This document shows, piece by piece, positions 2,172 through 6,247 of a stretch of DNA of 64,000 nt. Under the pieces are notes generated by a model, which saw only the letters and a program-made list of their open reading frames with translations, was not told the origin of the DNA and did not search any database. The translations under genes were made by a program, and so were the position numbers. Numbering within the stretch: position 1 is the first letter of the stretch; the number at the start of each line of letters is the position of its first letter. The DNA lies in NCBI GenBank assembly GCA_016870995.1, contig VFZU01000002.1, positions 62,001 through 126,000 on the forward strand, written 5' to 3'. This DNA is from Acidobacteriota bacterium (GTDB lineage: Bacteria > Acidobacteriota > Terriglobia > Bryobacterales > Bryobacteraceae).

Positions 2172-3485
2172 ATGCTGGTAAGAGAGATGCAGAGCAGAGT
2201 ATTCTCCTGGCTGTGGGCGGTTGCCCTTTTGCTTGACTTTCTCTGCCAGCCTTTTGGCGGACAGCCGTATGAAGTCATGACGTTGCTTTTGGCGGCGTTC
2301 TTCGCTTGTAGACCTGACTTAGGCTGGGTATTTCTGGTTGTCTGTGTTGCGGATCTCACGCACTTTCTGATTCAGGCGCCCTGGACGCCGAATCATGCCG
2401 TTCTACGCGCCTTCGTCGATTTGGTTGTCCTTGGTCATTTTTTCCTTCGGGGAAAACCCGGGGCACTTGAAGCCTCAAAACCCACCATTCGACTGTTGTT
2501 GATTCTGGTGTACGGCATCAGCGTTTTTCATAAGTTGAACCACGATTTTCTGAACCCAGAAGTAAGCTGCGCCTCTCAGATGCTGACCGATGGTGCACTT
2601 TGGCTCAGGCTCCCAAGCCCACCGCCAATCTTGCGGGCGATCTCGATTTGGGGTGCGCTCGCTTGTGAAATGCTGATCCCGATCCTATTGCTGTTGCCTA
2701 GATCCTACCCCCTTGCACTTTGGTTGGGACTGGCGTTTCATAGCATTCTTGCCCTGCATCCACACCCAGGAATCTATTCGTTCTCCGGGCTGGTGATTGC
2801 GATTCTGTCGCTGTGGGTTCCAGAAGAGCAGTGGAGCGATTTCATCGCCCGATTCGGGGAGAAGAGCGAATTGCTTCTCCGCGTAACAGCACGACTAGCT
2901 GTCATTTTCGCCACCTGCGCGGTGCTGCTTGAACCACATCCAAGATGGACGTTTCGGATTGGCCTCGCGGTTTGGTTTTCCTTGGCTGCTGCGGGGTTAC
3001 TCACCCTGTTTCGCCTCAGACGGCCGGGATCAGCCGAAAGACAAACATTGTTCCGTTTGGGCTGGGCTCCTTCGATCCTGTTGCTCGTTTTTGCTTTGAA
3101 TGGCTTCGCCCCATACATGGGGTTGCATACCGTGAGGGTGTTCTCGATGTTTAGCAATCTGAGGACGGAAGGCGGGGCGGGCAATCATCTCTGGATCTCA
3201 ACCGATAAGCAATGGTTCTCGTTCCAAAGCGATTTGGTGAAAGTGTTGGAATCTACAGATCCCAGGCTCAGCGAGTTAGCCATGAAAGAAGAAATGCTCG
3301 TCTTTTTCGAATTGCAACGCTGGGCACAGTCCGCGCCGAAACCATTTGACGTGAAAGTGCGTCGCCGCGATGGCAGCATTACGACCGAAACGGATGCAAC
3401 ACTTCCTCCACTGAATCCGATTCTGCGAAAGTTCCTGTTTTTCCGTGCCGTCAACAAAACGGGCCCATCAAAATGCAAATGGTGA
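2172..3485 (+). CDS. HTTM-like polytopic membrane protein
   Basis: A 437-residue protein with about eight hydrophobic segments in residues 10-310 and a soluble C-terminal tail of about 110 residues. The motif FHKLNHDFLNP near residue 119 and the NGFAPYMGLHTVRVFSMFSN block near residue 315, just after the last membrane span, resemble the HTTM family (horizontally transferred transmembrane domain, related to vitamin K-dependent gamma-carboxylase). Family membership is my recognition of these motifs; no enzymatic activity is established for most bacterial members. No good ribosome site is visible before the first ATG; a second ATG 15 bases downstream is an alternative start. It ends 9 bp before the -35 box of the metal-responsive promoter, with no clear terminator between. 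Confidence 0.7.
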   Translation: MLVREMQSRVFSWLWAVALLLDFLCQPFGGQPYEVMTLLLAAFFACRPDLGWVFLVVCVADLTHFLIQAPWTPNHAVLRAFVDLVVLGHFFLRGKPGALEASKPTIRLLLILVYGISVFHKLNHDFLNPEVSCASQMLTDGALWLRLPSPPPILRAISIWGALACEMLIPILLLLPRSYPLALWLGLAFHSILALHPHPGIYSFSGLVIAILSLWVPEEQWSDFIARFGEKSELLLRVTARLAVIFATCAVLLEPHPRWTFRIGLAVWFSLAAAGLLTLFRLRRPGSAERQTLFRLGWAPSILLLVFALNGFAPYMGLHTVRVFSMFSNLRTEGGAGNHLWISTDKQWFSFQSDLVKVLESTDPRLSELAMKEEMLVFFELQRWAQSAPKPFDVKVRRRDGSITTETDATLPPLNPILRKFLFFRAVNKTGPSKCKW

Positions 3486-3494
3486 TTTTTCTTC

Positions 3495-3526
3495 TTGACT
3501 CCGTACTCTGATACGGAGCTTAGGAT
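3495..3526 (+). promoter_or_regulatory. MerR-type promoter/operator of the metallothionein-like unit
   Basis: A -35 box TTGACT (3495-3500) and a -10 box TAGGAT (3521-3526) are separated by 20 bp, longer than the usual 17. The spacer region holds a perfect 7-bp inverted repeat, CTCCGTA (3499-3505) and TACGGAG (3512-3518), with a 6-bp centre. This matches the known design of MerR-family targets, where the regulator untwists an over-long spacer, and it closely resembles the mercury-resistance operator as I remember it (TTGACTCCGTAC ... GTACGG). The next ATG is only 7 bases after the -10 box, so the transcript is predicted to begin at or next to that ATG (leaderless). Confidence 0.85.
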
Positions 3527-3532
3527 CGAGCT

Positions 3533-3631
3533 ATGAAGAACCCAAACACCCGAGGCTGTTCCTGCTGCACGGCTTGCCCGTGCGGTGATCCTGACTGCAA
3601 ATGTTCATGCTGCGCTGGCAAAGAGAAGTAG
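3533..3631 (+). CDS. metallothionein-like cysteine-rich peptide (32 aa)
   Basis: A 32-residue frame with nine cysteines at positions 9, 11, 12, 15, 17, 22, 24, 26 and 27, arranged as C-x-C-C-x2-C-x-C-x4-C-x-C-x-C-C, with no aromatic residues. This composition is that of a small metallothionein, a cytoplasmic metal-thiolate buffer, although the spacing does not match a bacterial family I can name. It lies directly behind a mer-type promoter and 13 bp ahead of a MerR-family regulator gene, so context and composition agree on metal binding or detoxification. The start codon probably coincides with the transcript start, so translation would be leaderless; there is no ribosome site. No alternative reading of this stretch is apparent. 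Which metal it binds is unknown; the regulator's cysteines suggest a soft divalent ion such as Hg, Cd, Pb or Zn. Confidence 0.75.
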   Translation: MKNPNTRGCSCCTACPCGDPDCKCSCCAGKEK

Positions 3632-3644
3632 CCACAATTAAGGC

Positions 3645-4052
3645 ATGACGATATCCGAGGTTGCGAAACAAGCCAAAGTGGGCGTGGAAACCATTCGGTT
3701 TTACGAGCGCGAGGGCCTGCTTGAGCAGCCTCGTAAACCCGTTTCTGGATACAGGCAGTACCTGACCAGCCACGTGGAGCGCATTCGGTTTCTCAAACAG
3801 TGCCAGAGCTTCGGCTTCTCCTTGGCGGAAGCCGGGATGCTTGCCCATTCGCTGGAGCGCGGCGCGGCCACATGCGAGGATGCGTGCAATCTCGCGGAAC
3901 GAAAGTTGAAAGACCTGAAGGCCAAGATTGCCGAATATGAGGCGCTCGCCCGGAGGCTTGAGAACTTAGTGGACGCACCATGCCGACGACAGCAAAATGC
4001 GCAATGTTCCGTTGTAGATGCCTTAACAAATGGGGATTGCCAAGAAGCTTAA
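3645..4052 (+). CDS. MerR-family metal-responsive transcriptional regulator
   Basis: A 135-residue protein with the MerR winged helix-turn-helix at the N-terminus (motifs VGVETIRFYEREGLL, residues 13-27, and SGYRQY), a long dimerisation helix and a C-terminal metal site. Cys77, Cys113 and Cys121 sit where MerR has its three mercury ligands (82, 117, 126); Cys81 and Cys132 are extra. A cysteine at position 77 is typical of members that sense divalent ions (Hg, Zn, Cd, Pb), whereas copper/silver/gold sensors have serine there. It lies 13 bp behind the cysteine-rich peptide in what looks like one autoregulated transcript. An AAGG ribosome site precedes the ATG. The last four bases overlap the convergent GGDEF/EAL gene. 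Confidence 0.9.
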   Translation: MTISEVAKQAKVGVETIRFYEREGLLEQPRKPVSGYRQYLTSHVERIRFLKQCQSFGFSLAEAGMLAHSLERGAATCEDACNLAERKLKDLKAKIAEYEALARRLENLVDAPCRRQQNAQCSVVDALTNGDCQEA

Positions 4053-6247
4053 GGCGCCTGCCGAACCGCCTGAGCTTCCAGCATGCGGCGAGCCGCTTCC
4101 TTGGTGAGCGGTGGGGCAAATAAATAGCCCTGCCCATACGGACAGCCGAGACTGAGAAGTTCTTCGGCTTGCGTTCGAGTTTCGATCCCTTCGGCCACAA
4201 CCTGCAAGCCAAGACTCCCCGCCAGCATGATGATGGCGCGCACAATCTCGAATGCTGCGTGGTCCTGCATCATCGTGCTGATGAAGGATCGATCAATCTT
4301 CAGCGTGTCGAAGGGAAGCTTGTGCAGATAACTCAGGGAAGAGTATCCCGTTCCAAAGTCATCGATTTTCAGGCCAACCCCCATACGACGCAACTCCTTC
4401 ACCAATTCCAGAGCTTGCACAGGGTCTTGCACCAGCACGCTTTCGGTCACTTCGAATTGAAGAGTTTCTGGCGGAATCCTGGTGTCGGCAAGAATTTTCC
4501 GAATCTCATCGAGCAACGATCGATCCTGAAACTGTCGGACGCTGAGGTTGACGCTGATCTCTAGTGGCTTCGGCGAGGGGAACTCCTGCTGCCATCGGTG
4601 AATCGTTTCGCAGGCCTCGCGCACAGTGCTAATACCGATAGGTACAATCAGCCCGCTCTCTTCGGCCAGAGGGATGAATTGACGGGGAGGGATTACGCCT
4701 TTTTGAGGATGCCTCCAGCGTAATAGCGCCTCAAAGCCAATGATCCGTTCGCTCTCGAGAGCAATTTTCGGCTGGTAATAGACTTCGAATTCCCATTGCT
4801 CAATGGCTCGCTTGAGGTCGTTCTCAAGCGCCATCCGCTCCAGGACATCGTCGCGCATGTGCCTGTCGAAATGAACAATTCTGTTGCCGCCATCCGCCCT
4901 CGCAGAGTGTAAGGCGATCTCTGCGTCGCGCCAGATCTCGTCAGCATGACGGCGGTCTTCCTGCAGTACATAACCAACGCTGGTCGACAAGAACAGTTCG
5001 CTGCCTTGCATCCAAATCCCTTTGGCCATGGTGTCCTGAATCAGTCGGGCGATCCCCATCGCTGCTTCATGATCTTCCACGCCCGGCATCGCGATCGCAA
5101 ACTCTTCTTCGCTCAATCGAGCCAGCATCCAACTGGCGGTAGCCCGATCGCCGCCGTTCAGAGCAGCACCCAATCTTTCCCCTGCCATTTTCAGCAATTG
5201 ATTGCCAACGGATTGCCCCAGTGAATCCCGAATCAAGGCATAGCGATCCAGCCCCACCAGAAAGACCGCGAGACTGAGATCTTGGGCCTGATAAGCGTCT
5301 TCGAGCCAGTCCTCAAACATGAAACGGTTGGCGAGGCCGGTCACGGGGTCGATCGTCTTGGCTTCGGTAATGTCGGTGTGCGAGCCGCTGATCGCAGAGG
5401 GGTCATCATACTCATCGCGCTCAATGCGCCCGCGCAGCAAAACCCAGCGCCAACCCCCTTCCCGGTGTCTGAGGCGAAATTCGAAATTCAACTCTTCCGG
5501 TAGCGCCTTCCAATCGCTGCCACTGATCGCCTGGCTCAAGCGGGAAAGGTCAATCGGATGAATCAGAGTGAGGCATTCGTCGAGCGTACCCTCGACCTCA
5601 TTGGCAGCAAAGCCGCTGAGCTTGCGGAAGTTTTGACTGAACTCAACCTTGCGGGTGCGAAGGTCGAACCGCCAAAGATCCTGACTTAAAACCGACTGCT
5701 TGTGCTGCTGCAGTAGCTCTTCGGCCTGCCGCTTTTCAGAGTTGAGCAGGAAGCACTCGGCGGAAGAACGGAGAGCACGCTTCGCTTTTCTTTCGATCAG
5801 ACCCCAATCCCATGGGGTGCTAAAGAAATCATTTACTCCTGCCTCGATCGAGGTGTAGAGGTCCTCGCGAATGTGCCGTGAGCAACAGAAGAAGACAGGC
5901 AGTTGCTGCTCGTTTCCCTTGCGGCGCAGAGTCTCAATCGCCGCTGCGGAGCGTGCATCCCAACAATCTGCCAAGACGACCGCCAACCCAACTGGTGTGC
6001 CGAGTTTCTGACATTCTTCGGCAACGAGAAGTGCTTCATCCATGCGAGTGGAGGCAAAGACTGCCTCGTGAATCTGTTTGAAGAACTCCCGCCATGCTCG
6101 CAAGCAGGAACGATCGGACTCTTCGCCCTGGAGATCGATCACTAGGATCGGCATCTCGGGAAGATCCAGTTCCTGAGGAATCGGTAGGTCCGGAAATTCT
6201 GCGTATAGTTCTGCCACTTCCCTTGGCTCATCGACTGAGACGCGCAA
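4049..6247 (-). CDS. PAS-GGDEF-EAL protein, probable c-di-GMP phosphodiesterase
   Basis: A 732-residue signalling protein: a receiver-like N-terminal region (about 30-160), a PAS/PAC sensor (about 185-297), a GGDEF domain (298-465) and an EAL domain (475-725). The diguanylate cyclase signature is degenerate: the active-site loop reads LSEEEF at about 378-383 in place of GGDEF, so synthesis is unlikely. The EAL domain keeps FEALLRW, the ISVNLS and FEVTES strands, the KIDDFGTGYSS loop and VAEGIE, so c-di-GMP hydrolysis is expected. No transmembrane segment is seen, so it should be cytoplasmic. It starts 14 bp after the end of selB and is probably co-transcribed with it, although no functional link is known. 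Confidence 0.9.
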   Translation of the reverse strand: MRVSVDEPREVAELYAEFPDLPIPQELDLPEMPILVIDLQGEESDRSCLRAWREFFKQIHEAVFASTRMDEALLVAEECQKLGTPVGLAVVLADCWDARSAAAIETLRRKGNEQQLPVFFCCSRHIREDLYTSIEAGVNDFFSTPWDWGLIERKAKRALRSSAECFLLNSEKRQAEELLQQHKQSVLSQDLWRFDLRTRKVEFSQNFRKLSGFAANEVEGTLDECLTLIHPIDLSRLSQAISGSDWKALPEELNFEFRLRHREGGWRWVLLRGRIERDEYDDPSAISGSHTDITEAKTIDPVTGLANRFMFEDWLEDAYQAQDLSLAVFLVGLDRYALIRDSLGQSVGNQLLKMAGERLGAALNGGDRATASWMLARLSEEEFAIAMPGVEDHEAAMGIARLIQDTMAKGIWMQGSELFLSTSVGYVLQEDRRHADEIWRDAEIALHSARADGGNRIVHFDRHMRDDVLERMALENDLKRAIEQWEFEVYYQPKIALESERIIGFEALLRWRHPQKGVIPPRQFIPLAEESGLIVPIGISTVREACETIHRWQQEFPSPKPLEISVNLSVRQFQDRSLLDEIRKILADTRIPPETLQFEVTESVLVQDPVQALELVKELRRMGVGLKIDDFGTGYSSLSYLHKLPFDTLKIDRSFISTMMQDHAAFEIVRAIIMLAGSLGLQVVAEGIETRTQAEELLSLGCPYGQGYLFAPPLTKEAARRMLEAQAVRQAP

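Follow-up and report, generated by a model that had tools for sequence, protein, structure and literature searches.

A metallothionein-like peptide gene that appears to share a compact MerR-controlled cassette with its putative regulator in the Bryobacteraceae

A short cysteine-rich frame lies between a mer-type operator and a merR gene

The window (the whole stretch of 64,000 nt that was analysed, from contig VFZU01000002.1 of an Acidobacteriota bacterium) carries the following features at the locus under study. Loci with the same order of operator, peptide and merR are called linked below, as are their MerR proteins.

3495..3526, + strand: mer-type promoter/operator (sequence inspection, pattern match and the same layout in 14 other linked loci)
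3495-3500, + strand: -35 box TTGACT
3499-3505 and 3512-3518, + strand: perfect 7-7 dyad, CTCCGTA and TACGGAG
3521-3526, + strand: -10 box TAGGAT, giving a 20-bp spacer
3520-3525, + strand: alternative -10 box TTAGGA, giving a 19-bp spacer
3533..3631, + strand: metallothionein-like peptide MKNPNTRGCSCCTACPCGDPDCKCSCCAGKEK, 32 aa with 9 Cys, ATG at 3533
3645..4052, + strand: MerR-family metalloregulator gene, 135 aa

An earlier account made from the letters alone (the sequence-only reading) had described a classic MerR promoter with a nine-cysteine peptide directly behind it. Both descriptions hold: TTGACT, the 20-bp spacer, the 7-7 dyad and TAGGAT can all be read in the sequence, and the frame follows at 3533-3631. 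Operator, peptide and merR run in one direction with intergenic gaps of at most 13 nt, merR beginning 13 nt past the peptide stop codon. With 32 codons the peptide falls under the usual gene-calling size, and no other ATG frame of 20-60 aa in the 64-kb window reaches both six Cys and 22% Cys; of 100 dinucleotide-shuffled versions of the window, 3 contained a comparable frame. The arrangement of operator, Cys-rich frame and merR as a whole is well beyond chance.

Upstream of the operator, a gene on the + strand (2172-3485) encodes a membrane protein of 437 aa whose match to the HTTM domain is weak and below cut-off. Downstream, a PAS-GGDEF-EAL gene on the minus strand (4049-6247) faces merR tail to tail, with a 4-nt overlap of their stop codons, and this convergent arrangement is found in four loci of the window's genus (L187, L188 and L189 among them). 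Apart from the peptide-merR pair itself no directly adjoining gene is common to different genera, and a few gene families recur in two genera at some kilobases from the cassette.

The operator is the only convincing site of its kind in the genome

The window matches the pattern TTGACTCCGTA-N6-TACGGA once without mismatch; the second match listed is this site again, taken from the opposite strand with three mismatches, and the chance expectation for the pattern at up to three mismatches is 0.05 per window. Across the 5.7-Mb genome to which the window belongs, this operator is the only site with fewer than three mismatches, and the other matches, all with three, are not above the control. As there is one convincing site in the genome, the switch seems to have a single target, namely the peptide and merR alone.

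A mer-type operator also precedes the peptide in all of the other 14 linked loci, and the spacing from promoter to start codon falls into two types. In the window's genus the distance from the -35 box to the ATG is exactly 38 nt (4/4 loci), the -10 box ends 6 nt ahead of the ATG and a Shine-Dalgarno sequence is absent from the peptide start (4/4 loci). From the position of the -10 box together with the missing Shine-Dalgarno sequence, the peptide mRNA in this genus is predicted to be leaderless. The 11 peptides from the other five genera all have a Shine-Dalgarno sequence, and here the -35 box lies 53-57 nt from the ATG.

The cassette is conserved in six genera and patchily distributed

An initial search with the single MerR of the window against 200 genomes of the family (Bryobacteraceae) gave matches in 22 genomes and 14 loci in which a Cys-rich frame lies between a mer-type operator and merR. 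A profile built from 10 peptide-linked MerRs was run on 237 family genomes and found 47 places at E <=1e-30, with a clear break in score: 15 places reached at least 166.7 bits and the remainder at most 139.2 bits. The order operator-peptide-merR is present in all 15 of the high-scoring loci, which come from 15 of the 237 genomes and 6 of the 76 genera. No Cys-rich frame lies in the 350 nt before merR in 30 of the 32 lower-scoring loci; the remaining two are a decayed second copy (L162, genome G111) and a locus cut by a contig edge (G146). L162 (G111:C4:302800-306200) consists of a peptide stub and a frameshifted merR, and G111 also has an intact copy at another place. Of the eight genomes in the window's genus, four carry the cassette, one has it cut and three give no profile match. 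Its distribution is thus patchy both in the family and in the window's own genus.

Outside the family the peptide was not encountered in the loci inspected. In a scan of 399 genomes of the class all linked-MerR matches above 145 bits fall within the Bryobacteraceae, and the 16 places matched in other families of the class have no Cys-rich frame upstream (in L211, within the 46 nt in view). The same was found for the best 29 foreign loci from 396 genomes of the phylum (in L109, within the 138 nt in view). Among the 80 named-genome loci listed, only L075 (Bryobacter sp. isolate Bin_55_1_sub) bears the frame, on a contig identical to that of G071; Bryobacter is itself a genus of the Bryobacteraceae. 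A peptide profile (A1) used on the same 396 phylum genomes matched nothing and is insensitive, having missed even the copy in the window's own genome. A tblastn search of plasmids with the L008 peptide gave no match, possibly owing to the low-complexity filter; the MerR matched at least 5000 plasmid records and, among the matches listed, all are below 60% identity and most belong to mer operons.

The peptides are under constraint and have the composition of metallothioneins

Metallothioneins are defined by a short chain, of which roughly a quarter or more is Cys, by CxC or CC motifs and by few or no aromatic residues. The 15 peptides are 31-47 aa long with 9-15 Cys (28-33%), carry CxC or CC motifs and contain no F, W or Y, so that every one of them has this composition. 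Conservation of the cysteine pattern in relatives had been named beforehand as the test on which the sequence-only reading could fail; the pattern persists over 15 genomes and six genera, all 15 peptides having the motif CCxxCxC and all nine Cys being retained in the four intact copies from the window's genus.

Substitution rates point the same way. Peptide dN is lower than dS in all six pairs with a computable dS (two more pairs are saturated), as for example in L008/L009 (dN 0.045 against dS 1.38), and seven of the eight pairs show no loss of Cys. Between the L001 and L005 peptides 14 of 23 non-Cys positions differ and none of the nine Cys (one-sided Fisher p 0.002). Counter-evidence comes from the L010/L014 pair, with nine replacement and three silent codon changes and with 3 of its 15 Cys positions differing. 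Moreover, when codon changes are simply counted, the silent ones outnumber the replacements in only three of the eight pairs.

None of the 14 aligned peptides was fitted by a model of Pfam or NCBIfam at E up to 10, nor was the fifteenth, L148, in a comparison with Pfam only, while a control with the SmtA sequence scored 75.4 bits against PF02069. A 25-aa Neurospora metallothionein is also without any Pfam match, and since this short fungal protein is missed in the same way, the silence of the profiles is weak evidence that the peptide is new. A phmmer search of the PDB with the L008 peptide returned a single match, to a cutinase at E 0.75, which we attribute to chance. From composition and conservation we infer that the peptide works like a metallothionein filed outside PF02069; its metal binding and its induction by metal are putative.

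The linked MerRs share Cys77, Cys81 and Cys121

The window MerR has the usual domains of the superfamily, an N-terminal winged helix and a long dimer helix, and belongs there. Its best NCBIfam model is Hg-MerR (TIGR02051), which matches 10 of the 10 linked MerRs scanned; the window MerR scores 116.5 bits against a membership cut-off of 150.85, which it does not reach, so that by this match mercury is no more than a candidate metal for the sensor. In the PDB the closest sequence is that of Tn501 MerR (E 1.7e-24).

Metal ligands had been proposed at Cys77, Cys113 and Cys121. Two of these stand, Cys77 and Cys121 being present in every one of the 15 linked MerRs, and the third does not: Cys113 is confined, among linked MerRs, to the window's genus. 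Five others (L008, L009, L013, L011 and L016) have a Cys at places near 113, and in six (L010, L014, L017, L019, L023 and L148) this loop is free of Cys. A further residue that the earlier account had passed over, Cys81, is kept in all 15; together with Cys77 and Cys121 it shows no variation among the 10 linked MerRs that were aligned, and all three are visible in the other five. Of the three ligand places of Hg-MerR (Tn501 Cys82/117/126), Cys77 and Cys121 fit two in 15 of 15 proteins and the third place varies. In a scan of residues 56-105 of 138 MerR loci, CxxxC was found in two, L075 (linked) and L132 (not linked). L132 (G447, same class, another family) is thus a Cys-x3-Cys MerR without an upstream Cys-rich frame, and its promoter region reads CTATAGTGGCTATAG, which is not of mer type.

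In a structure model of the window MerR (pLDDT 87) residues 77 and 81 lie where the long dimer helix starts, separated by one turn, and the best Foldseek matches of the model are CadR, PbrR691, Tn501 MerR and CueR. In CadR the residue aligned with position 81 is Asn81, and a deposited structure of CadR N81M contains Cd, which suggests that position 81 has been treated by others as relevant to the metal site. The conserved candidates for the metal site are Cys77, Cys81 and Cys121 rather than Cys113, and Cys81 may replace the missing loop cysteine.

A careful tree was built from 61 selected rows (15 linked, 36 picked and 10 drawn, eight long-branch rows having been excluded beforehand) on an alignment that retained the Cys77 and Cys81 columns; in it the 15 linked MerRs form one clade with support 96/85. 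A quick tree of 147 rows placed them in two groups, requiring two changes, with many forks unresolved, and a single origin stays compatible with it. The nearest MerRs in the careful tree are six alphaproteobacterial or 'Proteobacteria' rows, which were inspected by eye. In several of them (L028, L029 and L041) the frames downstream of merR are presumably HMA-like. Descent of the linked MerRs from plain Hg sensors was considered and is unsupported by these nearest rows.

mer genes in the carrier genomes

In the window's genome the best matches to the MerA model score 334.8 and 289.5 bits, below the cut-off of 454.45, and the MerT profile gives no match at E 0.001; the pairing of merA with merT that marks a narrow-spectrum mer operon is not found there. 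The MerA model matches all 14 control genomes (one above cut-off), so that only the cut-off is informative, and MerT matches none of the 14. Among the 15 carriers MerA is above cut-off in one and MerT in two. The claim that the thiol peptide is the only effector of the switch fits this picture, as far as MerA and MerT were searched: no MerT, no MerA above cut-off and one operator. On these results a remnant of a mer operon was rejected as an explanation.

In one carrier genome (G137:C368, L025/L192/L215) merA, merT and a MerR lacking the peptide occur together at a mer locus apart from the cassette, from which it follows that both systems can coexist. Peptide-less MerRs of the family behind a mer-type operator in the reverse arrangement, apparently divergent from a MerT-like frame, were also seen at L015, L018, L022 and L025; these frames were recognised by eye and are profile-confirmed for the contig of L025 only.

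Discussion

In MerR proteins the apo form represses and the metal-bound form untwists the over-long spacer, giving strong induction. On this pattern apo-MerR would keep the poorly spaced promoter of the cassette silent until a soft metal ion is bound, probably by Cys77 and Cys81 of one subunit and Cys121 of the other, with Cys113 adding to the Cys121 side in the window's genus. Metal-bound MerR would then untwist the promoter, and the resulting transcript would yield the peptide plus more MerR. To judge by composition, the 9-15 thiolates of the peptide could enclose the metal as a small cluster; by analogy with the domains of animal metallothioneins nine Cys suit an M3S9 and 11 Cys an M4S11 cluster. 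As the peptide takes up metal the inducer would fall and the switch would shut off. For the inducing metal we would rank Hg(II) before Cd(II), Zn(II) and Pb(II), and these before Cu(I) and Ag(I); Hg(II) comes first on account of the operator type and the best family match, and we give it a chance of about one half. That the cassette is a self-contained, metal-activated sequestration operon seems to us probable, and the conserved operator-peptide-merR unit supports the minimal operon of this kind that the sequence-only reading had proposed, with the metallothionein role resting on an argument from sequence. The fuller account, in which a new metallothionein family is under positive autoregulated MerR control in a portable cassette, the sensor has a rebuilt thiol site (Cys77-x3-Cys81/Cys121) with Cys113 dispensable, and the peptide both detoxifies the metal and shuts off the switch, we hold to be evenly balanced between right and wrong.

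Several other explanations of the frame were weighed against this. It might be a leader peptide, ribosome stalling on it at low levels of charged tRNA-Cys altering the expression of merR: it is short, Cys-rich, predicted to be leaderless in the window's genus and only 13 nt ahead of merR, and leaderless poly-cysteine attenuators of mycobacteria have been published, reportedly by Canestrari et al. in 2020. However, the leaderless start is predicted in only 4 of the 15 loci, a Shine-Dalgarno sequence being present in the other 11, the RNA at the junction does not fold in an unusual way (z from -0.86 to 1.69 over the 15 loci), and the Cys are spread as CxC and CC along the whole chain instead of forming one run. 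Neither the low dN relative to dS (as in L008/L009) nor a mer-type, metal-answering promoter suits such a leader, and lacking both a Cys run and a structured junction the attenuator was rejected as quite unlikely. A chance frame caught between a genuine operator and merR has in its favour that 32 codons lie below the usual gene-calling length, but conservation in 15 genomes and six genera, dN below dS, the shared CCxxCxC motif and the ribosome sites all tell against it, as does the rarity of such frames anywhere in the shuffled windows, and we rejected this explanation as extremely improbable.

The strict pairing of peptide and MerR, with no other partner common next to the pair, is also what would be expected if the peptide served its own sensor as a metal donor or buffer, or as a thiol redox buffer, setting the threshold of MerR. 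Against this, a strong mer-type promoter and good ribosome sites suit a product made in quantity, and we know of no sensor-tuning peptide under its sensor's own activated promoter; we consider such a role unlikely. Sequestration by a metallothionein-like peptide thus remains our preferred reading.

The known bacterial metallothioneins of PF02069 (SmtA, BmtA and PmtA) resemble the cassette peptides in being small, cytosolic-looking and Cys-rich, with CxC-type motifs, and in lying by or under a metalloregulator. They differ in that none of the 14 aligned cassette peptides matches PF02069 at E up to 10 and no cassette peptide has an aromatic residue. Bacterial metallothioneins described so far are few and, by one account, their expression in prokaryotes is under negative regulation, smtA and nmtA being held by repressors of the SmtB/ArsR kind, with SmtA under SmtB and NmtA under AzuR (PMC8790569). 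Whereas SmtA and NmtA are controlled by repressors, the cassette has a regulator of the activating MerR kind. The nearest functional parallel is Zrd of Pseudomonas aeruginosa, in the CadR regulon, a small Cys metal binder under a MerR-family activator. Zrd is induced by Zn and Cd through CadR, which has cadA as a second target; its two Cys4 domains are described as zinc ribbons whose sites are mononuclear, its gene occupies a locus of its own flanked by two converging genes, and its authors compare it with metallothioneins (PMC12301328). The cassette peptide, in contrast, is 31-47 aa long, all-thiol and in an operon with its own MerR.

Tn501 MerR and the mer operon share with the cassette a mer-type operator and an over-long spacer, and Hg-MerR is its best NCBIfam match; unlike the Tn501 gene, the cassette merR lies 3' of its target in the same direction, the protein has gained Cys81, and the equivalent of Cys117 is not conserved. 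The window's genome also differs from a mer operon in showing neither a MerT match nor MerA above cut-off. Likeness to the mycobacterial poly-cysteine attenuators is limited to a short, Cys-rich, leaderless upstream frame in the window's genus; dispersed CxC motifs, a junction without RNA structure, Shine-Dalgarno sequences in the other five genera and a metal-type promoter set the cassette apart. A literature search, with most subscription papers outside its reach, found no publication describing such a cassette, and the available portions of PMC12193353, PMC12195606, PMC10141476, PMC9094748 and PMC3865332 describe no comparable peptide.

The two-gene pair is conserved over several genera of soil Acidobacteria, and the peptide has the look of a bacterial metallothionein of a new kind, one that would be switched on rather than un-repressed. 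Throughout this lineage a mer-type activator appears to drive production of a thiol peptide much smaller than the described metallothioneins, with neither MerA above cut-off nor a MerT match in the window's genome. If the reading is true, the cassette would serve as a compact, self-limiting device for metal resistance and as a natural metal-biosensor part, Cys81 would make it a test bed for the rewiring of MerR metal sites, and it would be a reminder that peptides of this size are missed by gene callers.
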